Assembly (NCBI GenBank): GCA_038093515.1
Contig: JBBPSI010000256.1
Coordinates: forward strand, 1 to 33,474
Source: Butyriboletus loyo
Lineage: Eukaryota; Basidiomycota; Agaricomycetes; Boletales; Boletaceae
Direction of reading: 5' to 3'
DNA: 33,474 bases
This document shows positions 2,041-29,482 of this stretch, in pieces; the stretch's first letter is position 1, and each line of letters opens with the position of its first letter. A program made the position numbers and the translations under genes. Under the pieces are notes generated by a model, which had not been told where the DNA came from, did no database searches, and worked only from the letters and a program-made list of their open reading frames with translations.

Positions 2041-2239
2041 TGTGGGCAGACCACCCCCATCATGCAAGGCTTGTTAAGCAAATTCATAGAGCATGGCTCA
2101 GTTCATGTGGGTTCATATGAGTGTGGTGACATCAGACACAAGCTGGTGGGGGGCAGCTTTGGCTGGCTGAATAACATGGTGTGGGCCTGTGCAAGCATAA
2201 TGGGAGTGGCACAAATGATACATTTCAATTAATCCCCTC

Positions 2240-6058: not shown

Positions 6059-6233
6059 GGAGAATGGGTATGCAGAGACAGGATAAGTTGCCTGTGACCA
6101 CTCCAAAAGTTCCCCATGACCAAGGTAGGGTCAATTTCATAACTTGTTTCACAGGGGCATTCTAGTTGATGCCATGCCATCATACATACAAAAGATGTGT
6201 AGCTACTACAAATACAATACAGATGTGATGCAG

Positions 6234-9630: not shown

Positions 9631-10140
9631 GCACATTTGTATGTTGGTGGGGAGTTCAATCTGACCAGTGCCAACCACAAAATGGATTTGCTATCTATGA
9701 CCTTGTCGGTCAACAATGGCTGACTATGACTGCCCAACCCATCCAAGCTCAATCTGGTTCCTCGGTTGGCATCATGCACTCTATCACTGTGACATCCTAC
9801 AAGCCCAACACAATTACAGTCGCTGGTTTGTTTGCCCAAGCAGGCACAGCCGTGCATCGGGGCATTTTATCAGCCTGCCACTGGAACCAATGGAGTGCGC
9901 TGGGTTCTGATCTGCAGGGTGATATTTCTTCAGTTTTGTTTGCTGGTGTATGTCTGTATTGTTTCTTACCTGGGCACTACTAAACAAGGTTTGCAGAGCA
10001 ACCAAGAGCTCTTGGTTGCAGTGGGTGCCATCAGGTTGGCTGACAGCACTCCTGCAAATGTTGCACCATACAGTTTCACCAATGATAGTTGGACTGCGAT
10101 AGGTGACCCAACTATGATCCCTGGTCCTGTCACCCCTTGG
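9631..10140 (+). pseudogene. Rax2-like cortical polarity marker, internal gene fragment
   Basis: Rax2 proteins are large membrane-anchored cell-surface polarity markers with many beta-propeller-like repeats. The plus strand encodes a run typical of the family: YVGGEF, NGFAIYDLVGQQW, SGSSVG, NTITVAGLFAQAG, WSALGSDLQGDISSV, then after a likely intron (about 9940-9990) QELLVAVGAIRLADSTPANV, YSF, and IPGPVT. The frame must shift near 9690. The family is normally over 1,000 aa with a C-terminal membrane segment; only about 170 residues remain, with no start or membrane anchor. Similarity stops near 10140, just outside the inverted terminal region of the large element. This is probably a duplicated or captured fragment of a host gene. 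Confidence 0.65.
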
Positions 10141-10169
10141 GTCATCCCATCCATCACTCCCTGCCACCT

Positions 10170-10590
10170 CATATCGGAGTCTGTGCTACTGAACCACGCA
10201 GGAGCACGCTTCCCGATGGGACTTCCATCACAATCTCTGTCAATGTCGCCAAGGCACGTTCCACAACTCACTCAGCACCTGCTGAGTTAATTTCAGGCCA
10301 CCAGTGACAGCTCTCACATCATCTGCCAGACTACTGCTAGGCTCCCCTCATGCCAGTGGACACATCCATGCACTGTTTCCATTGGCCCAGGACAGTACTG
10401 AGGGGTGTCGTTGGCAAACTTTCCACATAATGTAGTCACATTGTCATGTAGCACATGGCCACCCCAGGTTGACAATATCACTTGGTAGACGGGCACCCTG
10501 TGGCAGGCCTGTGGGTGCATTAGGAATACTTTGACGGCAGGGCCTGCCTGAGCCAAAAATGACAGTGTTGATGAGTTGGCCTGCAGGGTA
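10170..10590. repeat. Left inverted terminal region of the large KDZ element
   Basis: This stretch is repeated in inverted orientation at about 27761-28130. The clearest match is 10454-10516 against 27779-27841, about 84 percent identical over 63 bp without gaps. Around it, shorter matching blocks in the same order (ATGTAGTCACATT, CATGCACTG, TCCCG-TGGGAC) extend the similarity outward to about 10200. It adjoins minisatellite array A on the inside. The outer limit is not defined; the adjacent Rax2-like fragment ends near 10140. Confidence 0.65.
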
Positions 10591-11815
10591 GGGAGATGTA
10601 GGATATGGGTTGCATGCGGGCAGGCCTGCCCATGGGTCGATGGAGGACCTATGCTATAGATGGGCAGGCCTGGAGGGGGTATATACTACAGACAAATGGG
10701 CCCGCTAAGGGTAAATATCATAGTTATATTACAGGCGAGTGCAGACAAGCAGGCCCTTGGGGTATTATGTACTTCAGACGGGGGAGCCTGCTAGGGGTGC
10801 ATGGAATAGTTGTGCTACTGATGGGGGGCCTGTAGGGTGATATGGAATGCAGACGAAGGGGCCTGCGGGCGGAAATGTGACTCAGACAAGCAGGCCCTCA
10901 GGGTGGTATGTGCTATGGACGGGCAGGCCTGCTGGGAGTAATTGTGAGGGCTGTGCTGCTTGTGGGGGGTGCATGGGGTGATATGTAATGCGGACGAAGG
11001 GGCCAGGGGATGGAAATGTCACTCAGACAGGCAGGCCTGCTGGCAGTACATATTTGGGCCAGACTATGGACGGGGGCCTGCAGGGGGATATATAAAGCAG
11101 ACGAAGGGGCCTGCAGGTGAATATGTGAATCAGAAGAGCGGGCCCATGTGGTGATATGCTGTGCTGACGGGCGGGCCTGCTGGCAGTACATCTTTGGGCC
11201 GCGCTACTGACAGGGGGCCCGCAGGGGGATATGTAAAGCAGATGAAGGGGCCCGCATGTGGATATGTCCATTAGACGAGCAGGCCCATGTGGTGATATGT
11301 GGTGCAGATGGGCGGGCCCGCTGGCGATATGTTTGCAGGCTGCTCTGCTGACAGGGGGCCTGCGGTGTGATGCGCATGAGAGGTGGGGAGCCCACTGGGC
11401 GATGCAGAAGGTGGTTGAGGGGGCCTGCAGAATTTTATGCCCAACAAATGGGCAGGCCGTGGGAAATGCAGAAAGTAGATGGGGGGCCTGCAGGGCAATT
11501 TGGCAGGGGGAAAGGGGGCCTGCAGAAATGCATTAAGCAGACAGGAGGCCCATGGGGAAATGCAGTAGATGTATGGGGGGCCCACAGAATGACATGCAGA
11601 GTGGGCAGGGGGCCTGCAGAGAAACATGGAAGGCGAATGGGGGGCCTGTGGGGCATTGCGGAAGGTTGATGAATGGGCCTGCAGCCTGCCATGTGTGGTG
11701 AGCGGGGGTCCAGAAGGGTGTTCCTACATGGTGATGCCCGCTGCCGATGGGCAGGCATGCGGGCAGTGCATGCAGCAGCTGTTCTACCTGCAGGGCAATA
11801 TGAGCTAACAATGGG
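10591..11815. repeat. Minisatellite array A (about 33-bp monomers, four-monomer higher order)
   Basis: Monomers resemble GGGCCTGCAGGGGATATG followed by roughly GTAAAGCAGACGA, with 33-43 bp spacing. A higher-order unit of about 140 bp recurs (for example 11075-11220 and 11213-11355). The monomers are related to those of array B at 26745-27760, but on the opposite strand. Long ORFs crossing it are by-products of periodic, stop-poor sequence. It lies just inside the left inverted terminal region. Confidence 0.8.
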
Positions 11816-11891
11816 AGGGTCTACTAAGTGGTAAATATTGGGCCCCAATTTAAATTTTAGGAGTTATGTCAATAGTTTAGTACATGTACAT

Positions 11892-13241
11892 TTAGATCCC
11901 ATTTACCCTATCTCTTTCAGCCTGAATAGCCTCCAACCTCTCTAGCTCTGTCAATACCCTCACCACTGCCCTGTGCCGCTGACCACATGCTCGCAAGAAC
12001 AAGGATTCATACCTCCGTATGACCCTTTCGATAGGGGCATCAAGCCGCTGTGCTTCATGTGTAGCGGTGGGGAGAGGATTCTCTTGAGGAATTGAGTAGG
12101 CACCCAAGGCTTCTGCATGAATGTAAGAATGAAGGAGGGTTAGGATGTGGAGAAATCCTCCTTACCCAAAGTGAAATGTTCCAACACAGGGAACCCTTCC
12201 ATCTGAAGCAGCCTAAGTGCGGCTGCATTCTCCTCAGGGGCTGGAAATGGATGTATTAGTTGGATGAATGGAAGAATAGGTGGCAACATGCTTACCAAGG
12301 GATCTGCAGTGGTGCTCCATTAGCATCCGCTGATTTTCGCACTGGTTGAAGGCCCACAGCTCCAGAATGTGGGGCGGGAATTCTGCCTGGAGCGGGCGCT
12401 GGTACCTGGCGAAGGCTGAGGGGGCAGGGTTGGCATTTTCAGGGGCAGGAGGAGGGTCTTGAAGACCACAGAAAGGTCATCAATACGAGGCATGGGGGAA
12501 TGCAGGGGGGCACTTACCAGGTAGGTCCACATCCATGGAGTCTTCATGAGCAAGACTGCCAGGATTTTGTGCAGCAGCTGAGGGGGCGGCGACCAAGGCA
12601 GGAGGTGGCGGGGGTTGGAGATGGGAGATGCCCGCGAGGGCGCATGAGGATGCAGGAACAGGTGGAGGCAGGGGAATGAAGATGTTGGCAAGGTCATCCG
12701 CAGAGCGGGACACAGCGATGGGAAAGAGTGGCGGCAGTGGAATTAAGATGGCGAAGAGGGGGTTTGAAGGGTGGGGGGCTGCGGCAGGGCGGGGAGGCAG
12801 CGTGGGAATGGTGGTCCCTGTGGGAATAATGATTTGGGGGGTGGCAGAAGGGGGGAGCATTGGCGGCGGGGGAATATTGAGGCCAGAGAAAGGGTTGGAC
12901 GCGTTGTGGGCGGCGGCTGGAGGTAGAGGTGGCGGCGGTATGAAGACGCCGGCAAGGGTATCAGAAGGGCTGCGGGCTGCGGTGCAGAGCGGAGGTGGCG
13001 GAGGGATAACCAAGCCTGCCAGGGGGTTCTGCAAGCTGTGGCAGGGGGTGAGAAGCGGCAGGGGTGGCAGTGGAATGACAACTCCCATGAGATTGTCCCA
13101 CCCATCTGAAGCGGCGAACGGGGATGCCTCTTCTCGGGGGATGTGGAACACCTCAGCTGTAAAGGGTGAATGTCCATATGCATACTTAGCATGGAACTTA
13201 CGAGAGTTGATGAAACGCACTCAGCGGTGCCTGCCCTCCAT
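11892..13241 (-). CDS. Proline-repeat protein of unknown function
   Basis: Four exons fit on minus: 13241-12518, 12457-12296, 12240-12166, 12112-11892 (TAA end), with 60-, 55- and 53-bp introns that keep the frame. The N-terminal block RFINSRKFHAKYAYGHSPFT is unlike the rest. After it come about seven imperfect repeats of 22-28 residues with the core NPLAGLVIPPPPPL. The C-terminal part is helical and charged (ERVIRRYESLF, RVLTELERLEAIQAERDRV). I do not recognise a domain with known function. The ATG at 13241 is followed six codons later by TGA (13223-13221), just before VRFINSRKF; the simplest ancestor is CGA. Either the start is spliced in differently or this copy is broken at its N-terminus. 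It is head-to-head with the Zn2Cys6 gene. Confidence 0.62.
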
Positions 13242-13388
13242 CAGTGGGGATTCATGATCTTTCTGCGGGAAAGGTGCGGGGCTCATGGTGGTTGGGCGGG
13301 TTGTGTTGAAGCGAGACTGAGGTGTGGAGCGCAGCTAAGACAACAATGAATTAATGATTACCCATTTGGGGTTGGTGGATTTCAAAAC
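13242..13388. promoter_or_regulatory. Short intergenic region between two divergent genes, possible shared promoter
   Basis: Only about 150 bp separate the starts chosen for the minus-strand proline-repeat gene and the plus-strand Zn2Cys6 gene, so any promoters must overlap. I see no strong TATA box or clear operator. The regulatory role is inferred only from the gene arrangement. Confidence 0.3.
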
Positions 13389-15758
13389 ATGTGGATGCGT
13401 GGGAATCTGGACATTGAACATTTTCCTCATTATATCAGGCCATCACACATCGCTCCACCCCCATCATCTCTTATTCCCTCTCAAATACTCAAGATGTTGG
13501 TGGATCAAATCCTAGAAAGTGCAAGTGCTCAGATCTCCCAAGCCATCAGGGAATATGTCAGCACAGGTGGCCAGGACAATTGGAACAGGGCGGTTGAGGC
13601 AATCGAGAGCAGTATGGTGAGTGATATAAGTATTTGGTGGATGTACATGGTGACTAATAAATTCAAGGACATGGCGATGGCAGTCATCAATGAGGTGGCT
13701 GAGGTGCTGCCACTTCTGGTCGCGGTCGACATGTTCTGGAGACGCGATCCCTCGGAGTGGCCCGATTGGCATCAGATTGTGCGGCAGGATCCTGAGGAGC
13801 TCGATGTGCACCCTTGGAGACAGGCAGAAGGTAGCAGGGGTGGGCCAAGAAGTGAGTATGGTTGGTCGTCGGTCAGAAGGGGCCATGTGCAGGTGAAGCC
13901 GGAGCCCATGGAAGAGGATGACCTGGAGGATGCGGAGGATGAGCAGAGGGGCGATAAGGATGCAGAGGAGGATGAGGAGGAAGATGTTCAGCGCCGGAAG
14001 CAGGTTGTGAAGGGGAAGAGGAAGGCGAATCCAGCAGCAGAAGAGGAAGAACGCGGGCAACCCCTTCAGCGGCAGGTGGACAGGGTGGGGGCATCCAGAC
14101 CATACCCCAGGATCATCCTGACGGCAGATGTGGAGGATGAGGAAAGCAATGATGCCACCAGTCGGGACAGGCCTGCTAACACCCCATCTCCCACCCTCAC
14201 CTACACCACCAGCTCAGCGCCCCTGCCCAGCACCTCACCCTCCATCGATACCACATCGGCATCCACCTCCCCGCAACCCAAACCCGCTACACCCTCCACA
14301 CAGACAAGAAGGAGGCAATTCACCGCGAAGGCGCTCAAGTTGCCCCTGCCCTCCCAGCCGCCGAATGCATGCGAGGAATGCGTGTGGGTTGGGGTGGAAT
14401 GCGTCCCCAACAACAAGGGCGCCTGTGGAACCTGCCGCCAACACAAGAAGCGGTGTAGCCATATGGGGGGCCCAGCGGTGGTGGGTTCCTCCTCCTGCCC
14501 AGCAAGATTGCCCACGCTGCCATCGGAGGAGGCCAGACATGCAGCGAGGGGGCGGTCAGAATCATCCTGGCTGATGAAGCAAATGTGCACAAGGTCGCAG
14601 TCAAGGCCCAGGATTCCTCCGCCACAGGGACCACCCCCCAGCATCCACATACCAGCATGCTGCCCTCAAAAGCAGCAACAATCCCCACCGCCCCAAGGCC
14701 AGTGAAGCAGCAGCCTACCGATGGTGGTCATCCGTGCCCTTCCCAGGGCAAAAGGTAAGTATTCTATTTTATGCACAATGATTCATATGCTGATTTTTGT
14801 AGCATTTACTTGGCCATCCGCAGCTGCCTCTACATCTGCAATCCCGCCCCCACCTCCACCCCAGCCCAAGCACCCTGGCAGAAAGGCTACCGCACCCCAC
14901 CCTTGCCCTTGCCCACCCCCTTCCATTGCGGCGGAAGAAGGGCTCACTCCCCCTCCCCTCGCCCCACCCAGCTCAGGTGCCCCCGCTGTGGCTGTAGGTA
15001 GGAACTCAGGGCTTCGCCCTGGGCCCTCCTATGGTGTCGATGGGTCTCCGCTCGTTTCATGGGCAGAGCATGCACAATTCTGCAAGGAGTTTGCAGCCCT
15101 GCAGGCGGCGCACCACACCCTGCAGATCGACTTCAACGAGCGGGTACGCATCCTGGAGCAGGGGTTCCTCTCCCTGGGGTGTGTCGTCAAACAAGCCCGA
15201 TGACATGCCCTGCAAATCCCCGCCAGTGTCCCATCTGCCGCCCCAGAATGGTCTGCCCCCACCACCCCAACAGTACCTCAATCCCCACCAGAAGCGACAG
15301 CTGCAGAGCTGCCAACGTCACCACCCTGTGGGACGCCCCCGCCAGGTGGTGCCATATCTCATGGCTCTGCTGCAGGCTCCTCCACACCCTGCCAGAGCGA
15401 GCAGGAGCCTTGCCAACGCAGCCTGCCAGCACCACCGCCACCTTCATCGGAAGCACCCCAAGCACCACGGGCTGCATCATACCTGCCAATCAAGTCACTC
15501 GATGCGGCAATGGAGGATGAGGCAGAGTCATCGGCAGGGAAGGAGGGAGATGAGGTGCAGGGAGAGGATGCAATCTCAGGGGATGGGGAAGGTAAGCCTC
15601 CTGCTGATGTGGCTGGGGAGATGGAAGAGCGGGAGGAGCGGATGGAGGTCACAGATGACAATGCCGCGGGATGTCAGGAGGAGGAAGGAATTGCAGGTCC
15701 GCCTGAGGAGAGGATGGAGGTGGTAGATAGCAATGTATACCTGGGCAGGGACATGTAG
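13389..15758 (+). pseudogene. Protein with internal Zn2Cys6-type cluster and acidic region, decayed
   Basis: Two exons, 13389-14754 and 14803-15758, joined by a 48-bp intron give a frame of about 773 codons ending in TAG. Order: an N-terminal helical region; an acidic stretch (about residues 175-205); a Ser/Thr/Pro-rich linker; and a cysteine cluster with spacing C-x2-C-x6-C-x7-C-x2-C-x6-C (CEEC to CRQHKKRC, about 14369-14458), which fits the GAL4-type zinc cluster. The C-terminal exon has a Pro-rich part, a likely coiled coil (FNERVRILEQGF) and a Glu-rich tail. In-frame TGA occurs at 14703-14705 and 15201-15203 with coding sequence continuing; both fit CGA to TGA. DNA binding is plausible from the cluster, but its mid-protein position is unusual for a GAL4-type regulator. 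A shorter start at 13494 is possible. Confidence 0.62.
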
Positions 15759-15914
15759 AAGTAGCTTTTCACCTTGTACATATTTATTTTCTGAATCAAT
15801 TTGATGTCACAATATTTATAAAAGAAATCTTATTATGAGGATGATGGTGACAGGCCCATATGCTACAAGAATTCTAACCAAGCCTATGTATGTATGTACT
15901 AGGGGATGGTTAGT

Positions 15915-18175
15915 TTAGTGGATGTTCTGCCTTTTTGACCCCCTTTTCACTGGTGTTTCGACCTCTGCATCAACAGGGATCGGCGCCTTGCAGGCACACA
16001 ATGACTTACGCACCACTGTATCCTCTGCGGATATCCTCCGCCATTTGGCAATTGGTGGGGTTGTGGGCCTGGGTGGGGAGGCATATCATTCCACCACATC
16101 TCTGACTGAGTCTTCCAATTGCAGCTGATGTGCAGTTTTCCTCTTGCAGGAAGGCCTCGCAGCTGGTTCTGTGGCAGAACTGCCCCCTTGGGTGATTGGC
16201 GGTACTTGCGCTGCTCGTTGCTGCTTAGGGGCTGATGTCAATGCCCCTGGATGTTTACCATTGGCCCCCTTATGCTTGGCGGATGCAGCAACTGTTTTCC
16301 TGCTCCTTCCAACGTTGGCCTCAGGATATGCAGCTGCAGGCTTCGGCGGAGGGTCTGCCACCCCCGCTGATGGCTCTGATGGCATTGACTGCCGACCCCG
16401 GAGAATACCCCTGCCCGCTGCAGCAGGCGGAGGGGAATTATCTGCCATGGCAGTAATTTGCGGGCGGGAATGGCAGGGAGCGCCCCCACCTAGGAGCCAT
16501 CCTAGACATCCCTGCTTGGGGGCCTGCCCCACTCCCTACCTCCTTCCCTGTGTCATCCCCATCATTCACCACCACCTCCTCACCGCCTTGCACCATGCCC
16601 TCCTGCAGCTCTCCTGACTCATCCAGCCAATGGTGAAATTTGAATACATCCTGGGGGTGGCTTGTCTGACGTTCTTGAATCAGGCAGAGGAAGTGCAATG
16701 CCTCCGCGGTTCTCATATGGCTGGGGTCATCGGGGAATTCAAAGTCTGGGGGGAGATGCACCTCCACGATGAGCTCATGCGCACGGGTGGGCAGCCTCTT
16801 GAATGGAGCATTAGCAGAGGGCTGACCGCAGGCTTTTCCTTTCATAGGCATCAATGAACCTTCCATAAAGTCATGGCGAGCGGGCTTATGGTAATGAGCG
16901 GTCAGAAATCCATGAACCATAGATTGAAGGCCACCCCTTGAGACATTGTCCAAGGCTCCAATCCATATCGACTCATCTCCGCAGGTTATAGCAGAGACAT
17001 GGTCCGCCTTAGCTGCCCGCCAGTGTTTCATTTTCTTCCGTGGACCTCATCACAAGAGCTGTCGTTGGAATTGCCCTCACTTTCCTCATCCTCCTCTGCG
17101 ACTCTGAGCGACTCTCCGATGAAGCTCTCCCAGTGGGAGGTGACCTTTGAGATCCCTTTGAAAGCCCGTCCACCGTGGATCTCCTCATTGACGTCACTCC
17201 TAGAAATTGTCAGCAATTACCAGGGAAACAGAGTCTAAGACTTACACTGCAGTAACCTTCTCTCCCTTCTCATTCTTCCATCCTGCCAGCATCACCAGCC
17301 GCATTCCACATGCCCGCCACATTTCATATGCAAACTCGTGGAAAAGATCTCCGCCATAGCGGGCTGCATTCCTAGGGTTTTGTCAGCCCCTGCTGATGTA
17401 GCATGAGGCCACAGAACTCACCTGGCCTTCACCTCGTCTGGTGGGCCCCTCTCCAGATTCCACTCCACCGCTGTTTCCTCTGCCTCTTCCAGCTCCTCCT
17501 GAGTCAGCTCCTTCATCATTTCACGCACCGCCTTCTGATAATGGGACAGTGCATCTGTGGTCCCCAACGTCTTTCGATACCGCTGCGTAATTATCTTGTT
17601 GATGTCCTCTTTTTTCTGCTCTTGCAATACTGACTTGGCAGTCCAGGAGCGGCCAACCTTGATGTGGCTATGATTAGCCCCGCCTCGACATTGGTTATAC
17701 AACCATGTTTTGTATGCCTATGAATGTTTATGGTCAAGTTTGATTTATTGGATGGAATCAAAGTGCTTACCTTTTCTCTGGCCGCCCATGCAAGGCCCTC
17801 CAAGTTCTTCAAGGAAGGCAGTTGATGAAGTTGGCAAGATATTTGGGCCAACAACTGTTTCCTTGCTCTCCCTTTCAGGCTCATCCATTGTGCCTTCGCA
17901 TTGCTAAGGACCTTCAGTTCTTCTGCAGAGACCTTCATACGAAAGGAGCGGATCAGGTCTTCTTCTTCCTCTCCTTCCAAATCATGGTCGGAAGAAGGCT
18001 CAGATGAACCGGAGCCCCCCTCAATCTCGGACTCTTCTTCCCCGCCTTCCGAATCACTGTCCACACCCAATTCGGATTTGCTTGAGCTTTCCTCCACCTC
18101 AGGCAAGTAATCATAGTCAGCTTCTGATGATGATGAATTCATATCAAAGTCTTCATGAAAGATGATGGAGGCCAT
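15915..18175 (-). pseudogene. Acidic/basic protein of unknown function, lineage-specific family, decayed
   Basis: Five exons fit on minus: 18175-17771, 17657-17422, 17371-17246, 17199-16584, 16441-15915 (TAA end). The N-terminus is Ser/Glu-rich and acidic; the middle has RSWTAKSVLQEQ, LSHYQKAVREMM, VEWNLERGPPDEVKAR and FAYEMWRACGMRLVMLAGW; then GDESIWIGALDN and FLTAHYH; the C-terminus is Lys/Arg/Pro-rich. I recall similar uncharacterised proteins in mushroom genomes, but no function is known to me. Breaks: a one-base frameshift in an A-run at about 17031 (HGRK runs into MKHW only after a shift) and TGA at 16086-16088 in an otherwise open frame. An upstream ATG at 18244 is also in frame. It diverges from the KDZ transposase gene, 316 bp away. 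The 142-bp fourth intron is the least certain join. Confidence 0.6.
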
Positions 18176-18491
18176 AGTGGATGAGGTAGAGTTGTGGATT
18201 GGGATGACAGATGGAGTCCGTTGTATTTCCTTCCGACATACCATCTATCCTGACAACCCATGTCCTGCTTCTGATGGAATTCTCCCTGTCATACTTTTCC
18301 GTAATTCAATACAGTTATGTGGTGTAAATATGTCTAAGATGTTCTAGCCCCACATTGCCGACCCTGACAGACCCTTGATGTGATGCCAACACATTACAGC
18401 AACATGTTAGTCACCTCTATGGTGCAAGAGCTTCATACAGCATCTGCACACAGAGTGAATACCTCATCTTGAGCTCCAAAACCTTCTAAAC
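18176..18491. promoter_or_regulatory. Intergenic region between the acidic-protein gene and the KDZ gene
   Basis: This 316-bp gap lies between divergent starts and probably holds both promoters. It includes an alternative in-frame ATG for the minus gene at 18244. I see no repeat or clear TATA box that decides a start, so the call rests on arrangement alone. Confidence 0.3.
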
Positions 18492-21400
18492 ATGAAGGGT
18501 AAACCAATAAAACATTCAAAGAAGGTCACTTGGGTCACTTGGGAAACCAAGCAGTCCACTAGAGGATCCAAAACCTCTTTGCTTCCAATCAGCAATGCCA
18601 TAGAAACTCCATCTAGAAAGAAATCTCGCTCCACACCCTCTTCCCCAATAAAGCCTACTCCCTCCACCTCCAATGCTGCAATACCCCCTGTCTTTGATGG
18701 TAACCCAGAGTTTGATGATGGGATCCAAGACTTTGAGTTCATACCAAGGCTCAGACTCCCTACCAAGGTTTATTTCCCATTACATAGAAATCCCTATAGC
18801 TCATCATTCTCAAAAGACCCAGAATGATTATCTCTGCCAGTGGGTCAATAGCAAAGATCTGTATTTGAAAATCCTACTTGATATGGAAGCCCCACCTGAC
18901 CCTAGGAAATGCTCAATATGTGAGGGGGATGGCATATATAGATGCTCTGATTGCTTTGGACAACCCCTTTGTTGCACCCTCTGTTGCAGAGCCCAGCACA
19001 GGCAGCTTCCATTTCATAGGATTGAGCAGTGGACAGGGTCTTTCTTTGAGACCTCATCACTCCGCCTTGTGAGTCTCATCTCCAATATCTCCACTCAACT
19101 CACTGATGACCTGCAGGCTGGCCTTGAAATCCATCTTGGCCATGGTGGACATCCCTGCCCAATCAGCGGGCTGGCCGCGGGCTCAGCAAATGACATTCCA
19201 ATTCAAATGGAGGATGCGGAATTCGAGGATGAACCATCAGGAGACATTCCTGCCTATTTGAAACCTCCGCCCGGGTCAGACTACCTTACAGTCGTAGATG
19301 TCAGCGGAATCCATTTTGTCTCTGTCAACTACTGTGCCTGTCCACAATCCGTGGCATGCCACATCCAGCTCCTTCAGGCAAGGCTCTTTCCATCCACAAT
19401 TGACAACCCCAGGACCACCTTCACCTTCTCTGTCCTGGATGATTTTATCTGAGATAATCTGGAATGTGGAACATCAGCAAGCAACTATTATAGTAAGCTC
19501 CACAGGATCACATCCAATATTTTCCCCCATCTTGTCACAGTGAGTTACATCATCTCCACCATGAGTTGGCGGGCATTCATGGCCCCCCAGGACAGGTATA
19601 GGGATCTGTTGCGAGTATCCCAAAAATGGCGGCTGCTCAAGCTTATGAAGTGGGGCGGTTTTGGCCACTGCCAGGATCCGCCACAGCCTGGAGATCTCGC
19701 CCTATTCTGTCCCGCCTGTCCACAGCCTGGAATTAATGTACATCCTACTGAAGATGATGATCTATCAGAGTGAGTTGGTTTCTGTGAACAGAGGGTAAGG
19801 AATAATCTGATGTGAGGGTTGTAACAGCTCAAAATACAGCCGTACAGTTATCATGGATGGGAATTTCAAAGTGGAACACTTGCATGATAGGCAGGCAGGA
19901 GATCAGGTTTGGCTCATGGATGGGCGGGGCTTCACGGTCACCCACGGCCCTTATCAGGCCTATCTTGCAGCCACGCACCACCCGCTAGAGGTATGTTACC
20001 AGGCTATCAGCTCCAATTCCCTGCTTACATGTCTTCCTCTGACCAAAACAGCGGTCCGCTTGCAACAACCACAGGGCAATCAATCAAGCCAATACCAGCC
20101 GCGGGAGACTTGAAGCAACCGGAATAGGGGCGACCGCCTGTGTGCGGCATGGTTGCTTCATCCCACATTCTGCAGTTGATTTCCAAAAGGGAGAGCAGTA
20201 GGTAATTGATCTTGAAGCACCCCTCCCTCACTTGACCTTTCAGCAGACAAGTCAATATGGATTACTCCCTTGCCAATGCCCTCAAGTACAACATGGAAGG
20301 CATCCGCCGCGTGATCAGCTTCTATGACATAAATTGCGCCTATATGAAGAAGCTGCAACAAAGAGTTAGCAATAACACCTTTATTGATATCCCCGCAGGT
20401 CTTGAAATAGTTCCGGGAATTGGAATATGGCATGTACATGGCCACCAACCTCAATGCTTCCTGCGATATGCCCTGCTTTTTATTGAAGGGGCGGGGTGGA
20501 TTGATGGGGAGATCATTGAAACCCTCTGGTCTATCCTTAATATAATCCTTGGATCCACCTGCGGAATGTCATCCCCGCATCGTCAAGAGCTCATTGACTT
20601 TCAGATGAATGACTCCAACTTCATGAAAATGATTCGAATGGGTGAGCATCATCAATCCCGACTGCATTCAGCCTTTGAAACATCTAACCAACTCTTCACC
20701 AGGGATAAATCTGGCAGGGAAGCTCAAGCTGGCTTGTCAGTCTGCTGTGGATGCCTGCAGGAAATTTGACAATATAGATGCCGCTGTTCCTGCAGCGGAG
20801 CGCAGGATGTGGCAGGAGCAATATTGGCGGGCATTAAATTCTCATTTGACTGATCCTTCTGCCATGGATGTATTTCTAATCAAAATGAATAAAGGTTGGT
20901 TTCTCTGTAGCTGAATGCATTTCATCTTGCAGCACTAATCTATCCGCTAGCCAAAACCGTCTGCAGTGTTGAATTGGACCTGCTAGCCAAGCAGCAGGAT
21001 AGGCCAACAACTTCATGGGGTGCAGCAACCTGGCTTTCCCGCAGGCTCCATATTGAGGAATTGCAAGTTATAATTATCAAAGACAGCCATATGTACGGGC
21101 CACGTGCAACAGAGGTCCAGCGATTAGCCATTGCCTGTCGGTCCGATCAATTATCTGCTGAGATATCCCAATTCATCTCTGATTCGGCCCCCTACCTTGG
21201 AGATTGCATTCAGAATGACTGCGACTCAGATACAGATGAACCTCCAAGTGACCTGGATGATCCTGAGGATGAAACCCCCAATCCAACCCTCTGTCCATCA
21301 CTGAGGCACTCAACCCTCCCCCTTCCATCCACATTGGGACCTGATGCATTGCAGGAATTTGGACTGCAAAACTTGGCTGACCAGGAGTTGCAGCTGCAGG

Positions 21401-22089
21401 TAGGTCAGGCGAATGATGCCCTCCATTCCATTTGAATGGCCCTGGCGGACAAAGCTGTTCTTTTTCGGACAGAGGTCCGCCATGCCAAAAGCCAGGTCAC
21501 CAACACCAGAGCTTGGGGAAAGGTCAATTCAGTTGATGCCGCCCTCGCACATTGCGCCGCTATTTACAGGAAATGCCGCAAGGCCATGATTTCCCTGGGG
21601 GCGGATGATGAAACCCTTGAAAGGTATCAGGACCTAAATGAGGCGGACCTGAATATAACCGCCACGATCTCAGATCCGAATGGCAGCGGACACCGCAATG
21701 AAGGCCTCACCTGGTTTTGGCTCTTGGATATACCGCGGGATGCACAAGAGGACAATTGGATGTCGGAATGTAATTTTCCAATTTTAACATCCAAATATAA
21801 GTTGATAAGCAACCCGACAGTCTATCACATAAATTGGTTTCGAGCTAAGGCCGCCTGCGATCATTGGAACGAAGAGGCGGAGCTTATTGCGGCAGAGTTC
21901 CAATGGACATCCAATTTCTTCGACATGAAAGTGGATCAATGGATGGAACTGGTGGCAGAAAGTGGATCCAGGGGAGAGCGCAGGCCTGCATGTTATGCCG
22001 CCCGACAGGCCGCTACATACAGCAGGCTGCGGGATCAGTGTCAAGATTCATTTGAGTCTGTTAAGATATGCCATAGGGGGCTTGCATGA
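18492..22089 (+). pseudogene. CxC2 cysteine-cluster KDZ transposase, decayed
   Basis: KDZ (Kyakuja-Dileera-Zisupton) transposases move DNA elements with an RNase H-fold domain. Ten exons keep one frame: 18492-18767, 18817-19068, 19117-19539, 19591-19769, 19828-19990, 20052-20197, 20247-20641, 20703-20894, 20933-21769, 21821-22089. The CxC2 cluster is RKCSICEGDGIYRCSDC followed by LCCTLCC and HRQLPFHRIEQW, then LGHGG. The KDZ core shows MDGNF, KGE, NMDYSL, FYDINC, WHVHGHQ, GEIIETLW and MNDSNFMKMI; Asp of MDGNF, Asp of YDINC and Glu of ETLW are the likely catalytic acids (inferred). The C-terminal part has ALADKAVLFRTEVRHAKSQ and WFWLLDIPRD. Two in-frame TGA codons (19450-19452 before DNLECGTS, 21433-21435 before MALADKAV) interrupt it; both fit CGA to TGA. 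Full length would be about 1,000 residues, normal for the family. Confidence 0.88.
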
Positions 22090-22497
22090 CATTAAATATA
22101 TATGCAATGTATTTCTACATAGCCGCGGTGTTCTGACTTTGACAAAATGTGCCACACTGCCAAATCAGGGAAACAATGTGCCTGTCATTCCTTATAAGGA
22201 TCAGTCTCTCGTGCAGCCATTCCTTTCCGACAGACCTTCCGGCAGATGCCTCTCCAATCCTTCTCCATCACAATGCCTGCCATCACACAAAGCATTCTGC
22301 AGTGGTCGATGTATTATCTCGGCTGCCACATTGAGGCCGCCACCTGCCACCTTTGCTGCCTGAAGGCTCAGAGCTGGCCCAGCCACTGGGAAGCCTCACT
22401 TGAGCGGGAATTCGTGAGCCCATCCAGCCTCAGGTTGATTTCCATGCTGATCTCTTGCCCCATATAGGCCTGTCTATTTGCTTTTCAAAGCACTTAC
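22090..22497. other. Gap between KDZ gene and tail ORF
   Basis: Directly after the KDZ stop come AT-rich bases, then sequence with only short ORFs in either direction. It may contain lost or unrecognised exons of the tail ORF, but I cannot support any splice pattern. Confidence 0.35.
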
Positions 22498-23014
22498 ATG
22501 ACTAGGTTCACTGTTCCTGTGCAATCTCCTGCCTGTCAAGGCATTTATCAACACTTCAAAGGCACTGATAAACTGCAGAGCAAGCTGATGGATATGGCTC
22601 CTGAAGCATTCAAGATGATCAACAACATCCCGACATTCCTTGCGGAGTGGAGTCCGAATCGTGCGGATGAGTTTGCCAATGATTGGTGGATGATGGACAA
22701 GGTGGATGAGGAATTTTGGGCAGGTGATGTGGGTGTATTCACTGATCTCTCAGATGAATACTTTCAAGTAGGTGATGATTATTATGCCATTTCCGGAATC
22801 GCTGACCCGCAGATAGAATTGGTGGGGGCCCCAAGATTCCCCATTAGTGGAGCGGCAAAATGAGCGGTTGGATCAAGAGGAGGAGCAATGCCTGAGGGCT
22901 ATCCAGCAGGACCTTGCTGCAATAGCAAGGCTGGATACAGAGGCGAGGCATTTCTGGACCCGCCGAATGGAGCTCCGTGCTCTTCTAGGCCATGAGGAAC
23001 TGCAGTCAGAGTAG
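22498..23014 (+). pseudogene. Tail ORF with C-terminal coiled coil, unknown function
   Basis: An open frame from ATG 22498 encodes a Trp/Asp-rich segment (FLAEWSPNRADEFANDWWMMD) up to SDEYFQ at 22767. A 45-bp intron (22768-22812) is also found at the same place in the relic at 2240-2505, which supports it. Beyond the intron, a different frame reads ERLDQEEEQCLRAIQQDLAA and ARHFWTRRMELRALLG to TAG at 23012-23014, a likely coiled coil. The join between the intron and this frame fails by one base or needs another acceptor, so this copy may be shifted. I do not recognise the family. It lies 3' of the KDZ gene and converges on the TET gene. Confidence 0.45.
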
Positions 23015-23169
23015 ATTATTAATGTGAAGTTATTCTGAGCTGTGATAAGAATGGTAATTAAGCAATAGTTAAGTCTGAGACTACTCTGCCTTCCCCCGAC
23101 CTGCCAGGCGGCCATGTGAACAGTCAGAAGCCACTCTGTGCCTGCTGACTGGCATTCGCTATGCTCCCC

Positions 23170-23530
23170 TGCCATTCCCGCTGCCTGCCTTGAGATGCCA
23201 CTGCAAATGCGCCCCGCCTGCGCTCAGATGCCCACCACAAATGTACCCCACCCACGTTCAGATGCCCGCCGCAAATGTATCCCACCCGCCTTGAGATGCC
23301 ACTGCAAATTCACCCTGCCTGCGCTCAGATGCTGGCCACAAATGTACCCTGCCCACGTTCAGATGCCCGCTGCAAATTCACCCCACCCACCCTGAGATGC
23401 CACTGCAGATGTGCCCTGCCCGCGTTCAGATGCCTGCCACAAATGTACCCCACCCACCTTGAGATGCCACCACAGATGCGCCCCACCCGCCACTAGATGC
23501 CTCCGCCCACTGCGTATGCATGCCGCCCAC
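23170..23530. repeat. 34-bp minisatellite, about nine copies
   Basis: Monomers resemble ATGCCCGCCGCAAATGTA followed by CCCCACCCACGTTCAG, each 33-34 bp, from about 23190 to 23500, with weaker copies to 23530. The array occupies the space between the convergent tail ORF and TET gene, as the 20-bp array does in the left relic, although the monomers are unrelated by eye. Confidence 0.8.
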
Positions 23531-23596
23531 CTTTGAATGCCACAACATTTCGTGAATGCACGCTGCCCAGCCCAAGTACCCTTTGGCAGCCCTTAT

Positions 23597-24134
23597 TGTT
23601 GCGAAGGCAACACGCAGTCGAATGCTAGCACGTAGTACCCAGCCACAAGCGGTCCACAACAGTTTCAGGTATACACAAGTACCTGGCAGAGATGAACTGG
23701 AGTCTCAACTTAATCCTCAACTGTTGCCAGCGAATAGACAAGTGGTTAAAACTAGGGAATCCTAGTCTAACCACGAGCCTTTATATATTGTACAGAAGTG
23801 CGCACAGACCATGCTGTGCGTGAGATGAATTACTATACATGGCTAGACTAAAGAAGAGAAGCGCAACGGTGATTAACCACACAAGGCGCGGGGATCAAAA
23901 AGAAGAGAAGTAAACGGAGATTAAATACATGTGTCGTGACGTCATAGAGTCTAGGCTTGGTCTAGGCCATGACATCATATGCTTAGTCAGCAGGAGATCA
24001 CATGTAAGTTCCCACGATCACATGTAAGTTCCCACGATCACGTGTACTATGTCACGTGATCTTTGAAGTTGAAAACGACTAAGTCCGAAGTGAAAGTGTA
24101 CGAAGTGTACGAATAAAATGTTATGATTATAACA
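23597..24134 (+). mobile_element. Solo LTR, 538 bp, Gypsy-type, TSD CTTAT
   Basis: Starts TGTTGCGA and ends GATTATAACA, with exact target duplication CTTAT at 23592-23596 and 24135-24139. It has a TATA box (TTTATATATTG) followed by GCGCACAGACCA, which sets plus orientation, and a short hairpin around the related word TGCGCACAGACCATGCTGTGCG. A 20-bp direct repeat (GATCACATGTAAGTTCCCAC, 23996-24015 and 24016-24035) lies near its 3' end. No internal domain remains. Confidence 0.9.
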
Positions 24135-24268
24135 CTTATACTCCTGCCTTCCGCCACTGTCTCTGCCTGCCCGGAATTAAATTTGACCGCCGATGACTTT
24201 ACATTGCAATCTGTCAACTCTGCATATATTCTACTCATCTATCTCCATATCCAGCTTATTGGCCTCTA

Positions 24269-26462
24269 TTATCCACCATATTCCAACCTTCCCAGCTTCT
24301 CCACCTGGGCATAATTACATCTTGGAACACCCACCGCTGCATGTACCTTGTCCTGCATGTACCATGCAATGCATGCGTGATCCTCCACTACCTCCGCTGC
24401 CCTGTGGACGATCAGCCTGCCTGAAAATGCAACCACAGTCCCAGGCAGATACCATAACCTCAGCTCCTGCCTTGGAAAGGTGAGGTCGAGGCCGCTATAA
24501 TTCCCGACTGTGAGAAGTTGATCAAACCATTATGGAAGTCCATTTTTGTCCAGATGGCAGGGGCTGGACCTGTTAACCATGGCAGAAAGGCTATTGAATA
24601 TGGATGGCCAGAGTTCCAGCACCCCCTGCATGTCCTTGAGGTCCTCCGCCGATGAGACGCCCCAGAGTTGGATCATCGCCTCCCGCGCTAAGTCATACAT
24701 CTCAGGATGCATGATGCTCATGGCGGCGGACATTACCGCCTGTGTGTCCATCATGTTTGCAAGCCAGATCCTCCCCTCATTGTTATTCTGCCCACCCTTC
24801 AGAGTGGCGGAAACCTCCAGTTCACCGCTGGAATGCTGCAAGCTGCGGTGAAGCTGTGTGTGCCTAATAAGTAAATCCGACTTACATCACGCCCTTGCTG
24901 ATACCATGCGGGGGACATGTTAAGGCACCCCGCCAGCTCCGCATCCTGGCAGAAATAGCTCTCCTGCATTCTCCAATTTTTACCCGCTTTTGATGCAGTG
25001 ATACTCCTCGTGAGGGTGTTGCAGAGGTGCTGAAATGAGCTCCATACCACCTCCTATGGCTGCTATTCAAATGGCAGTGGAACTGGCAGGCTGTTACGCT
25101 GGAGTGCGAAACAACTAGCAGCGAGCGCTTGAATAGGGGCTCGAGCCTAATCGGGAAGTGGCCGACTCGCGTAGACGACGCTATCGGGCTTCTGCTGAGC
25201 AAGTGTCTTCGAGATGTTGAGTGGTGGCGACCAGTCGAGATCGAGTAGAGACTTATTGGCTCAATCGGCAGATGGGGTATAAGCTAGATTGCTAGGCACT
25301 TGGTAGATGCGTAGAATTAGCTAGAGAAGCCGTACTATGCTAAGTACACTGGTATATATACTAATAGATATGGCGCACAGACCAAGCTGTGCGTGGCAGC
25401 GAGGGTGAAGGGTTATGAGTCGCGTCGAGTCATAACCATAAAATGTGGAGCGGCAAAGTGCCGGTAACGAGGGAGCGAAGCTCCGAGCAAGGTGGCGACA
25501 TCGTCAACGAATAGGAAGATCAGAAGGTGAAGTGACGATGTCCTCGAGGTGTGGCCCACAGGGCAAAGGGTGCGCGAACAGCGGAGCCCTTGGATACGGG
25601 TCTCGACGCGAAGGTACGACGCGTCGTAATCTAATCACGTGCTAGTCACATGATGCAACAAATGTCATTGGTCAAGAAAAGTGGGACGCGACAGCTCAAC
25701 TGTGGGTCCGGCCTGACAGGGCGACAAGACAGGGGCTATCTCAGTGTAGCGACACTGAGACTTGCAGAACGACCGGGGAAGTGGATAACGTCCACTAGGC
25801 GACTAAGGAGCGGGTGATGGGCGGCATCGCGAGACGGCGGGGGCGGCGGGGACGCGTGAGCATGGGAAAACGAGTGGCGGGGTATGCTTAGGGGTAAAAC
25901 TGTAACACAGGCCATGCATACACACCTGGTTCACCCTGCTCAATGCCTTCGGGAGATACCATGCAATGATATACCCCCTTTCATTGACTATCATAGCTGG
26001 CGCCATCAATGACCGCCAAGACCTTCCATCCAGGTCTGATGTGAGATTCTGCTTTGATTCATATCTCAACACCACATCCACTTCCCGCAGCGAATTAAAT
26101 TCCACCGGTGTGACTACCTGATAGATCAGCTGGTACCAGCTCTGATGTATGATAATCTTACCTGGATGCTTGTATGCCTCCGCTAAAGCATGCACCATCA
26201 AATCCGCCTTGCAGACTGTTTCCACAGAAATGTTGATGTTTGGAAGAATCTCCATTGGAACAGTGGTAGGTTGAATTTCGGCAGAGAATCGACCTTGCAT
26301 ATAAATCGAAATGTGATCCATGAGCTTGAGCAGGGACCCAGCTGGAGCCTTGGTGAAGGGTCGGGTGGAGGACATCGTGAGAATTCTATGAAACGACACT
26401 GGGAAGTAAATGCCATCCTCCACCTGATTATAGAGCCATTCATCTCCAAGACAACCGGGGTT
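24269..26462 (-). pseudogene. TET/JBP-like 2OG-Fe(II) dioxygenase, copy 2, split by an LTR in an intron
   Basis: TET/JBP enzymes oxidise 5-methylcytosine in DNA. On minus the frame is open from about 26462 (true start not found) through an N-terminal part, then DVVLRYESK and AMIVNERGYIIAWYLP to an exon end at 25926. An intron at 25054-25925 contains an entire solo LTR; without it and one TSD the intron would be 51 bp. The next exon (25053-24886) reads WSSFQHLCNTL and CLNMSPAWYQQGRD; a 50-bp intron follows (24836-24885). The last exon has MHPEMYDLAREAM, the HxD motif as HLD (His 24557-24555), SIFNSLSAMVNR and, after a TAA at 24532-24530 in place of a likely CAA, the distal His in RLIVHR and WYMQDKVH. 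The expected 2-oxoglutarate Arg reads His (EDHACIA). The frame ends at TAA 24269. Broken, but with most of the domain readable. Confidence 0.75.
25092..25907 (+). mobile_element. Solo LTR, 816 bp, Gypsy-type, TSD CAGGC, inside a TET intron
   Basis: Starts TGTTACGC and ends ACTGTAACA, with exact duplication CAGGC at 25087-25091 and 25908-25912. GGTATATATACTAATAG followed by GCGCACAGACCA gives plus orientation, antisense to the host gene. It is CpG-rich compared with the decayed genes around it, for example TCGAGATCGAGTAG and GACGCGTCGT, which suggests a younger insertion or less deamination. It sits wholly inside an intron of the TET-like gene. Confidence 0.92.
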
Positions 26463-26744
26463 TCAAGTCAAAGCAACCTAATGTGGCATGACTCCTATAT
26501 ATTCAAAATGCACCCGCCGCCCTGCATGTCCACAACCTGGCCAAGGAGTGCAATTAAATACATTTAGGTGGTAGCTCTTGGATAGAAGTCACCAGGCCCA
26601 CTCAAGCCTGTAGCAGAACAGCCTGCACATATAGAATGCCCCCCATTGATCCTGAAGGGACCTGCCCATTGCTGCGGCGGAATGCCCAATATTAGCTATC
26701 TGCTTGCCATATCCTTCATTTAATGCTAGTGGCCGCCCCTTCGG
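26463..26744. other. Possible upstream or 5' part of the TET-like gene
   Basis: A stop in the TET frame at 26463-26465 means that any further upstream exon must be spliced in. I cannot identify it. The stretch ends at the first monomers of array B. Confidence 0.35.
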
Positions 26745-27760
26745 CGCTGCAAATCGCATTGCGGGCCCGCCAGTATATGCCATGCCGCCCTACCCGCCAC
26801 CCCTCAGGCCTGCCTGCCACACTCCTGCCAAGAGTATACCTCTCTGCATGCCCCCTGCAGGCCCTCTCATTTGCAGCGCATTACCTCTATCTATACCTGG
26901 CGGGCCTGCTCATATGTACCGCAAATATGCCTGCAGGCCCTGTCTTCCCAAGCATATTTCCCCTATATACACCCCGCAGGCCCACCCATATGTACCCCAC
27001 ATACACCTGTGGGCCCTCTCATCCACCCCGCAGTCTGTCTATGCCACCTGGCGGGCCTGCCAATATATACCTCACATACACCTGCTGCCCCTCTCATTCA
27101 AAGCACATTTCCCCTATATACACCTGGCGGGCCCACCCATATATACCACATGTATACCTGCAGGCCCTGTTGTCAAAAGCACATTTCCCCCATATACACC
27201 TGGCAGGCCCGACCATATATACTATAAATATGTCTGCAGGCCCTCTTGTCTATCGTACATTTCCTCTATATACACCTGCAGGCCCTGTCATCAAAAGCAC
27301 ATTTCCCCTATATACACCTGGCGGGCCTGCCCATATATACTGCATGCACACATGCAGGCCCTGTCGCCCAAAGCACATTTCCCCCATATACACCTGGTGG
27401 GCCCAACCATATATACTGGAAATATGTTGGCAGGCCCTCTCGTCTATATCACATTTCCTCTATATACACCTGCGGGCCCCCTCATCTACCCCACACTCTT
27501 ACTATATACCCCCAGCAGGCCTACCCATATGTTGCATATATCCCCCCTGCAGGCCCCCTCATCTAAAGTACATTCCTTCTATATATACCTGGCGGGCCTG
27601 CCCACATATACCACATGTACACCTGCAGGCCCTCCTGTCTAAAGCACATCCCTTCTATATACACATGGCAGGCCCCCCATATATACCATATGCCCACATG
27701 CAGGCCCTCCTGTCTACCATACATTTCCTCTATATACACCTGGCAGGCCTGTCCATCAAT
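26745..27760. repeat. Minisatellite array B (about 76-bp units of 34+42 bp), inverted relative to array A
   Basis: Units contain CTGGCGGGCCTGCCCATATA and TGCAGGCCCTGTC then AAAGCACATTTCCCC and TATATACACC. The block CCTGG(C/T)(G/A)GGCC recurs at 27046, 27123, 27199, 27317 and 27393, mostly 76-77 bp apart. The GGGCC / CATAT / CCTGC words match those of array A read on the other strand. Very long plus-strand ORFs (up to 363 codons) arise because the units lack stops in all three frames; I do not treat them as genes. Confidence 0.82.
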
Positions 27761-28130
27761 GCTGTGCTAAATTTCACCCAAGGGCCTGCCCCAGGGTGGC
27801 CGTATGCCAGGTGACATTGTCAACCCAGGGTGGCCATCTGCATAGGAAAATGTGACTACATGGGCTCAACTTTCAGACCATTTCAATCAAGGAGTAGTCC
27901 TGCATGTTGAATTCAAGTTGAACATCAGACCAGTGCATGCATCCTCGCACGCCATATGGAACTGCCGATCCATCTCTGGCCACCAGACGACTCTCATGCC
28001 CTCTCCCCTGATCGTGCCAGTGGCCCAGGCCCCAGGACTTGACCATGGCGGCAGCAGTGGGAAGTCATTGGTGACAGACATTACTTTGCTTCTGGCAAGT
28101 GTCCCACCGGGATGTTGAACGTCAGACCGT
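27761..28130. repeat. Right inverted terminal region of the large KDZ element
   Basis: This is the inverted counterpart of about 10170-10590. The best match is 27779-27841 (reverse complement) to 10454-10516, at about 84 percent over 63 bp. The ordered smaller matches continue outward past ATGTAGTCACATT (about 27850-27865) and CATGCACTG (about 27932-27942) to CCCGGTGGGAC near 28100. It lies on the outer side of array B, symmetrical with the left side. The outer boundary is not resolved. Confidence 0.65.
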
Positions 28131-28260
28131 GCACGGGCCCTCATGCATCATATCGCACCGCATCATTTCCAGTTGGCGACAGACGTTGCTTTGCTTTCAG
28201 GTGTCCCACTGGCATGTTGAATGTCGGACCGCATGTTGGGCCCACCATATCCTGCTTCCT
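27895..28260. repeat. About 102-bp direct repeat in the right terminal region
   Basis: Two units start with GTGTCCCAC at about 28099 and 28201, followed by ATGTTGAA(C/T)GTC(A/G)GACCG. A weaker earlier unit with ATGTTGAA and CATCAGACC lies near 27905. The repeat overlaps the inverted terminal region and may extend it to about 28230 on the right side. Confidence 0.6.
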
Positions 28261-28334
28261 TTTTTGGATGCTGACTCAGCAGCTGCAACTCAAATCCAGG
28301 GTTCCCTGCGAGTGATCCTTTGACACATTTACAT

Positions 28335-28353
28335 GCTGTGCCCAGGGCACAGC
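28335..28353. repeat. Perfect 19-bp palindrome
   Basis: GCTGTGCCC and GGGCACAGC flank one central base. The right arm continues into GTGTGTATTTT, so 28345-28364 equals the reverse complement of 2835-2854. It may be part of a small inverted-repeat element or a protein-binding site; the function is unknown. Confidence 0.55.
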
Positions 28354-28409
28354 GTGTGTATTTTCTTGATTATAGTAACTTATGTCTTTCAAATTGTACG
28401 CCACATATT

Positions 28410-28808
28410 ATGACTACTACGCCATCACTGCTGTCAGTGCTGCCACTGGCTATTCTGCCTCCACCCCCTATCACACCAACATCACGCACCCAAGGCGCAA
28501 TCACTCCAGCCACTAGCCAAACCATGGTACTGACTCCAAATAATTTTGGTCATGCCTTGTCATCTTCGAAAATTGAGAAGTTGAAAGAAGGTAATTGGCT
28601 TGCATGGGAGATGCGTATGACTGCTGTCCTAAAAAGGAAAGGGGTATATGGCATTGTTGCTGGAACTGATTTCAGAATTGGTAAAGTCCGAGCAGGCGCA
28701 CCGAGGGCAACAAAGGATGCAAGGGTAAACCTATCAGTGGAAAGACTCACTGATAATACGAGAGTGAGAGTATCACAAACAGAGTATAAGGAGCAAGGCT
28801 CAACTTAG
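28410..28808 (+). pseudogene. Copia-type Gag N-terminal fragment
   Basis: From ATG 28410 the frame encodes a low-complexity Thr/Pro-rich start and then KIEKLKEGNWLAWEMRMTAV, the W-x2-W-like Gag opening common in Copia elements. The frame stops at 28806-28808, just before the LTR at 28835. No protease, zinc knuckle or Pol follows on plus. It is opposite in direction to the Copia element to its right and looks like the remnant of an older element cut off by that insertion. Confidence 0.6.
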
Positions 28809-28834
28809 AGATATCGCAGTAGTGATGATAGAAC

Positions 28835-29118
28835 TGAAAGATCTGGAGAAAAGCGACAAGCCATAAGGGCTGTCTTATATACAGTACATGAGTGTTTGTA
28901 CTTATGTTCTGTATAGTACCTTTATAAGGTATAGTATGAAATACATGACGATATGATAGAGATAAGAGATAAGACTAAGCATATCGTCCAATAGCATAAT
29001 AAGAGCTATTTGTAATGTGATAAGCGTGACTAGGTCTAGACAATGATGTCATATAGACCAGTCTAGAAACGTAGTGGCTGTAAGTGAAATACAGAAATAG
29101 AACACTACCGTTTCAACA
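28835..29118 (-). mobile_element. 284-bp Copia LTR, extra copy
   Basis: It begins TGAAAGATCT and ends TTTCAACA in plus coordinates, so it has TG...CA ends. It differs from 29199-29482 at only six positions I counted and has no indel (constant offset 364 bp). An 8-bp direct repeat GATAGAAC flanks it exactly (28827-28834 and 29119-29126). It is either a solo LTR or part of a tandem LTR structure at the end of the adjacent element. Confidence 0.8.
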
Positions 29119-29198
29119 GATAGAACTGAAAGATCTAGAGAAAAGACAACCAAACAACAACAACACTACTTCTAAGGTATATATGACATCATTCTAGA

Positions 29199-29482
29199 TG
29201 AAAGATCTAGAGAAAAGCGACAAGCCATAAGGGCTGTCTTATATACAGTACAGGAGTGTTTGTACTTATGTTCTGTATAGTACCTTTATAAGGTATAGTA
29301 TGAAATACATGACGATATGATAGAGATAAGAGATAAGACTAAACATATCGTCCAATAGCATAATAAGAGCTATTTGTAATGTGATAAGCGTGACTAGGTC
29401 TAGACAATGATGTCATTTAGACCAGTCTAGAAACATAGTGGCTGTAAGTGAAATACAGAAATAGAACACTACCATTTCAACA
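29199..29482 (-). mobile_element. 3' LTR of the minus-strand Copia element
   Basis: A 284-bp LTR, TG...CA, about 98 percent identical to 28835-29118. On minus it begins TGTTGAAATGG directly after a purine-rich run, which is the expected position of the 3' LTR of the element whose Pol frame ends at 29501. The matching 5' LTR would lie beyond the window. Confidence 0.85.

Follow-up and report, generated by a model that had tools for sequence, protein, structure and literature searches.

That TET genes ride on transposons in mushroom genomes is already known. In the sections of Kojima (2025; PMC12730594) consulted here, TET-positive elements of the KDZ (Kyakuja-Dileera-Zisupton) superfamily are described from Agaricomycetes and escape from silencing is proposed for them; two Laccaria Kyakuja families have 7-bp target-site duplications (TSDs), CA..TG ends and no terminal inverted repeats (TIRs), only TET-positive Kyakuja were seen in Boletales, and the function of transposon-borne TET genes is said to lack experimental validation. 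The Cryptococcus elements KDZ1, KDZ2 and KDZ3 are about 9-11 kb long, with TIRs of 139-241 bp and TSDs of 8 bp or 4-8 bp, and are active, their insertions having been caught in the laboratory (PMC12810828, sections consulted). Kat1, a domesticated hAT transposase of Kluyveromyces, depends for its activity on terminal and subterminal repeats (PMC4763223, sections consulted). Here we analyzed a stretch of 33,474 nt from Butyriboletus loyo (the window, which is contig C256 of a host assembly of 30.3 Mb and 420 contigs), and we estimate with a probability of roughly 0.9 that its positions 10424-27867 represent a single insertion of a TET-positive transposon of the DNA type, from the KDZ superfamily. 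The coordinates of its features are collected in Table 1.

The borders of the element, which is 17,444 bp long on the + strand, were defined from end matches across the host assembly. The two ends form an inverted match (10430-10548 with 27861-27742) of 78% identity over 121 columns (blastn, E 3e-19); its local score of 98 compares with a maximum of 32 among 500 shuffles of the left piece, and 96 of 117 aligned bases were identical in a gapped alignment of the two ends. A left-end query (9700-10640) gave 41 rows in the best 40 of 70 candidates, comprising the window itself, a flank match at C64 (9700-10133) and 39 end matches. Twenty-nine of these start within 1 base of 10424, two begin 3-6 bases before it, and the remaining eight, mostly right-type ends, start 6-12 bases inside it. 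For a right-end query (27740-28420; 42 rows in the best 40 of 67 candidates), end matches mostly halt at query positions 122-138, near 27867; the exceptions are the window and C299, which continue into the flank, C71 and C12, which match downstream, and C161, a broken end. Left ends in the aligned loci almost all start with CACATAATGTAG (L032 is one base off and L036 lacks the terminus), and right ends, read inward, start with GAGCCC, or with AAGCCC in three loci (the terminus is missing in L058). The junctions in these loci are abrupt, and the flanks differ by eye except in C299 and in contigs with identical starts. A genome search for patterns of the ends, allowing 2 mismatches, gave 34 left and 41 right ends, while the reversed patterns used as controls gave none for either side; some of the ends counted are assembly duplicates, as the starts are identical in C249/C103, C323/C129 and C99/C117/C176/C189. 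Queried separately, each flank of the window had a single other match, of 74 bp at C64 for 10060-10423 and at C299, which carries the same insertion end, for 27868-28240.

An initial annotation of this DNA had described inverted terminal regions. The similarity that it reported is real, exceeding that of all shuffles, while the extent that it gave is not, the ends lying about 250 bp further in on each side. We rejected 10170-10423 and 27868-28130 as terminal repeats, given that genome copies stop near 10424/27867 and that these outer stretches are not repeated with the element. They align with a score of 19, which was reached by 137 of 1000 shuffles, and under softer scoring the observed value was reached by 14 of 1000; their similarity is a weak hint at most.

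Properly oriented pairs of left and right ends occur four times in the assembly, and three have a duplication (7/7, 7/7, 6/7 and none). Apart from the window, duplications were found for a nested element at C64:87744-91376 (CTTGGCA, 7/7) and for C85:6069-8224 (GTTTCTT/ATTTCTT, 6/7). The C64 element, of 3.6 kb, interrupts another copy of the large element, and copy C77 reads a single uninterrupted CTTGGCA at the same place, providing an empty site for this insertion; the window and C185 read CTTGTTG there. Both short relatives have the same termini and arrays as the window element, with a longest open reading frame (ORF) of 131 codons, and the one at C64 also retains 0.8 kb similar to window 25092-25907 and 0.4 kb similar to 23641-24024. 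An internal tandem repeat of 159 bp was observed in the short relatives of C64 (L035, L068, L073) and C85 (L024, L069, L072).

Larger copies were identified using positions 11800-18700 as a query, for which all 39 of 39 candidates were scored (58 matches). The query is present at full length, collinear and with 93% identity in C77 and C185, and partially in C157 (query positions 1-5236, 88%), in C3 (1-4531, 92%) and, in part, in others. Collinearity of C77 with the window extends over 10424-23110; beyond this, the TET stretch and the right end are absent. In C185, the collinear segments correspond to 10867-20555, 20551-23353, 24738-25086 and 25910-27868, the left end and most of the TET region are missing, and a 496-bp insertion is present. 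A second copy of the window insertion, including its right flank, is present at C299:20000-26446 (L074), with about 5% divergence inside, differences at 15 of 229 sites outside and 91% flank identity over 373 bp; this is an allele or a duplicated locus. Because the ends are sharp, the duplication is 7 bp long and near-complete collinear copies occur at two other contigs, we conclude that the element has moved as one unit in the past. This supports the earlier proposal that the whole block is mobile. The term "composite" that came with it was dropped, as the element has, as far as found, a single transposase and a single pair of ends.

The transposase gene matches the Pfam domains CxC2 (E 1.7e-20) and KDZ (PF18758, E 1.4e-24). 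It contains the motifs MDGNF (at 19853), YDINC (at 20323) and GEIIETLW (within ~20506-20540), which we take to hold the acidic catalytic residues. A rough transposase joined from frames had 755 homologues among 7599 candidates. Patterns of the three motifs were found in 112, 111 and 92, respectively, of the 120 homologues listed, which come from Boletus, Pisolithus, Scleroderma, Suillus, Imleria and Tylopilus, presumably all genera of Boletales. The TET frame has the AG-type, CcTET-like arrangement of HxD with Gly at +5 and Asp at +11, reading HLDKNGLP-stop-WFD in the window and HLDKNGLPQWFD in C299. Both enzymes named in the initial annotation, a CxC2-KDZ transposase and a TET/JBP-like dioxygenase, are confirmed. 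The ORF preceding the TET region on its strand, which had no meaningful match in solved structures, is perhaps an N-terminal exon of TET. KDZ matches were found on 15 contigs and TET matches on 24, and wherever the two genes share a contig (8 of 8) they are convergent. Of the 15 KDZ contigs, 9 have one or more of the listed element ends, as do 18 of the 24 TET contigs; the remaining 6 in each case have none. The earlier interpretation had named copies of the two genes without the terminal regions and arrays as evidence that would count against it; many KDZ and TET copies are truncated or end with their contig, and the end-less ones do not decide the matter.

The GGGCC arrays were recognized just inside the ends and in opposite orientation in the initial annotation, and this held: 32 of the window's 33 GGGCCTGC sites fall at 10540-11682 or 26857-27789, compared with 2.4 expected for the whole window, and both arrays read inward from their ends. 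The left array has a spacing of mostly 32-33, and its unit, again spaced by 32-33, recurs in end copies of more distant relation and in the two short elements. Unit and inward orientation were found even at left ends only ~77-84% like that of the window, and the unit is present at the right ends of C221 and C201, which adjoin TET genes of a second type. An 18-base pattern of the unit had 66 matches in the genome, of which 47 (39 left, 8 right) lie inward of a listed end, within 2 kb of it and oriented like it, compared with a chance expectation of 0.16. The presence of the arrays in distant and gene-poor relatives is consistent with their being transposase binding sites. Alternatively, and this is the possibility that we take most seriously while favoring it less, the arrays may be ordinary minisatellites that lie near the ends by chance and play no part in transposition. 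Minisatellites expand on their own, DNA adjacent to ends tends to survive internal deletion, several end copies (e.g., C46, C418 and C307) have few GGCC sites, the short element of C64 has internal arrays as well, and binding of the arrays by a transposase is itself inferred. However, chance would have to account for one unit in one inward orientation at both ends, including the divergent left ends, as well as for arrays beside second-type TET genes and in two short elements that have transposed. Helical phasing of the array sites was also considered and is not claimed: spacings of ~23, 33, 43 and 53 bp occur, but some near the ends (35, 37, 44, 45 and 49) depart from this series, and the spacings are not independent because of tandem duplication.

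Several observations weigh against the interpretation of 10424-27867 as a single KDZ-TET insertion with functional subterminal arrays. Apart from the one in the window, no full-length copy with both ends was seen. Of the two traces of insertion that the initial annotation had suggested looking for, the AACTTTC duplication is present, while queries of the host assembly with the flanks alone revealed no empty site for the insertion in the window. The fourth pair of ends, 35 kb apart in C157, is flanked by the unlike sequences GTCTCGT and ACTTTCA and is, by the duplication test, not one insertion. A TGA at 19450 in the transposase is common to the window and C77, not C185; where this motif position could be read, in 77 of the 120 listed homologues, it encodes Leu (51) or Arg (26). 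The TET frame of the window has two in-frame stops, one of them absent from the C299 copy. Because of these three stops, the window copy may not be autonomous. Finally, 19 of the 66 unit matches lie away from any listed end, several of them on contigs with broken copies, and the short relatives retain arrays partly because arrays adjoin the ends.

Under the single-insertion reading, the CxC2-KDZ transposase would, by analogy with what is known of its family, cut at the ends and paste the element into 7-bp staggered targets; the arrays may offer the transposase, or a partner encoded by the element, many sites to bind, and TET would oxidise methylcytosine on the element and thereby counter silencing. 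C>T changes on either strand among three copies affected 488 of 838 CpG, 122 of 1985 CpA, 48 of 2079 CpC and 24 of 1594 CpT sites, CpG thus mutating ~9-39 times more often than other cytosines. Repeat-induced point mutation with a TpCpG preference was rejected, as the rates were 0.56-0.64 for all four 5′ bases. The CpG ratio was lower in element ends than in outer flanks (means 0.37 and 0.56, paired p 0.002) at 39 loci, 11 of which go the opposite way; repeated, short and terminus-less loci had been excluded by hand. The host has five C5-methyltransferase-like exon matches over the Pfam cut-off, on four contigs. This decay pattern fits a methylated element, which would therefore be a substrate for TET. 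Over 12,239 shared aligned dinucleotides (10424-23110), the window kept 365 CpG, C77 275 and C185 297, with similar counts of private transversions (37, 38 and 34, respectively). We did not accept protection by TET of its own copy as an explanation: the test is marginal (Fisher p 0.034, C>T against transversions) and compares one copy, whose TET frame has stops, with two.

A more speculative and rather unlikely extension is that the arrays are methylation-sensitive assembly platforms, and that TET licenses the ends for transposition, beyond raising expression. When it reads GGGCCCGC, the GGGCCYGC core contains a CpG; methylation of many array sites by the host would block transposase assembly, and the element's TET would reopen them. 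This idea points to the window, where the TET region is kept, retaining more CpG than C77 and C185, which lost all or most of it. Given a bounded unit, short relatives and CpG-type decay, the minimal mobile DNA and the use of TET become testable.

The left gene block may have a history of its own. Matches below 80% identity, which represent an older lineage of the family, begin no earlier than query position 4794 (window 16593) and so cover the acidic-gene and CxC2 part, not the left block. Transversion divergence among the three copies was 1.47% (83/5657) in the left block and 0.46% (25/5461) in the core (Fisher p 3e-8; 11801-17593 vs 17594-23100, with 13221-13349 not counted), and candidate reasons for this threefold excess are module exchange, older age or different constraint. 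Both the lack of listed relatives below 80% for the left block, whereas the part from 16593 on has them, and the unequal divergence, which suggests modules with different histories, would be expected if the locus were a nested pile, that is, an ordinary KDZ-TET element whose left block (11800-17593) and arrays derive from separate insertions or from host genes. We consider this very improbable, as C77 and C185 have the left block in unchanged order, C3, C157, C64 and C404 have parts of it so ordered, and the left end precedes the block by 1.34-1.38 kb in the window, C77, C3 and C404 (about 2.2-2.3 kb in C157, C64 and C129, and 10 kb in C249). Shared order and spacing therefore indicate that the block was acquired before these copies spread. 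Least probable is a segmental duplication of a gene cluster in place of transposition: at C299 the element end is accompanied by the right flank, which makes this one locus duplicated or allelic, but flanks otherwise differ by eye (bar contigs with identical starts), those of the window are near-unique, and 7-bp duplications occur.

Within the transposon, the proline-rich and cysteine-cluster genes may be passenger or accessory genes of a younger subfamily. The accessory proteins of the initial annotation were recovered in part: proline-rich and acidic ORFs exist and the gene count of six is plausible, whereas the Zn2Cys6 label is weak, the match to Pfam Zn_clus (E 0.047) being below the cut-off. 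No homologue of the cysteine-cluster ORF was found at E 0.001 among the 7989 best-sharing candidates, a search that low-complexity words may have spoiled, and none of its cysteine region at E 10 among 17 candidates. Purifying selection on the accessory genes is not claimed, as codon positions gave no clear signal in three copies; the core, too, has few synonymous changes, and such counts are confounded by CpG decay that stays hidden.

Table 1. Features of the KDZ-TET element and its insertion site (window coordinates)
Feature	Position	Strand	Remarks
Left TSD, AACTTTC	10417..10423	.	Same 7 bases at 27868-27874
Left TIR, imperfect	10424..10548	+	First 6 bases unlike right end
Left subterminal array, unit ~33 bp, GGGCCYGC core	10549..11770	+	
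Proline-rich ORF, 246 codons	12483..13220	-	No Pfam match; stop-free in C77 and C185
Cysteine-cluster ORF, 451 codons, Zn2Cys6-like only by eye	13350..14702	+	One stop each in C77 and C185
ORF, function not assigned	16441..17046	-	
Acidic protein ORF, 217 codons	17594..18244	-	Region partly 67-72% in older lineage of family
CxC2-KDZ transposase gene, approximate, with introns	18492..22860	+	Pfam
TET/JBP dioxygenase catalytic region, HLDKNG motif	24365..24919	-	
ORF upstream of TET region	25806..26462	-	No Pfam match
Right subterminal array, sites mostly 33 and 42-43 bp apart	26854..27756	-	
Right TIR, imperfect	27742..27867	-	blastn, genome copies, gapped alignment
Right TSD, AACTTTC	27868..27874	.	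Same 7 bases at 10417-10423

Outside the element, the window contains a second TET sequence at 350-986, which matches 24342-24978 in inverted orientation (74%). It is open for 185 codons at 409-963, has 65% protein identity to the element TET and Asn at +11, and its nearest solved relative is CcTet (E 7e-16); it is probably what remains of a relative truncated at the start of the contig. Positions 2363-2502 match 22749-22885, also inverted (68%). The 496 bp at 1381-1876 are also present inside the KDZ gene of C185 (L070), at the equivalent of window 20551-20555 with a 5-bp overlap, and are perhaps a small separate mobile element. At 28242-29482 lies what is perhaps another transposon, repeated in short pieces at C71 and C12 and containing a 98% direct repeat of 284 bp (28835/29199); a perfect inverted match of 23 bp was seen at 2834/28343. 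Minus-strand ORFs at 3303-7159, one with a weak DUF3435 match (4484-4870, E 0.0099, below the cut-off), are perhaps the remnant of a tyrosine-recombinase element. Starships are giant tyrosine-recombinase elements with a DUF3435 captain inside one end; no such captain was found among the frames scanned, which were a subset of those in the element, and we do not class it as a Starship.

The KDZ domain with CxC2, the acidic-residue motifs and a duplication within the 7-8 bp range place the element in the KDZ superfamily. It shares the 7-bp TSD of Kyakuja, but its left end starts with CA, its right end finishes with GGGCTC and TIRs are present; because these are not the CA..TG termini without TIRs described for that lineage, we do not file it, on its sequence, as Kyakuja in the strict sense. 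The words "subterminal" and "satellite" do not occur in the main text of PMC12730594, by whose descriptions its families are compared here, and subterminal GGGCC arrays in KDZ elements were not found among the titles and abstracts listed by literature searches, which covered few subscription papers. Kat1 (PMC4763223, in part) belongs to another superfamily and serves as an analogy for array function only. With the Cryptococcus KDZ1-3 elements the present one shares a KDZ transposase, long TIRs and TSDs; those elements are CxC1 where this one is CxC2, and the consulted sections of PMC12810828 mention no TET, arrays or extra cargo for them. Its closest counterparts are the TET-positive Kyakuja of Kojima (PMC12730594, in part), which likewise combine KDZ and TET/JBP genes in one element, with 7-bp duplications, an AG-type TET motif and Boletales hosts, while it differs from the Laccaria Kyakuja of the same source in its CACATA...GGGCTC ends, imperfect TIRs of ~120 bp, subterminal arrays and extra gene block. 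The element thus looks like a known kind, a TET-positive KDZ transposon, in a bounded form with arrays and extra cargo that looks new.

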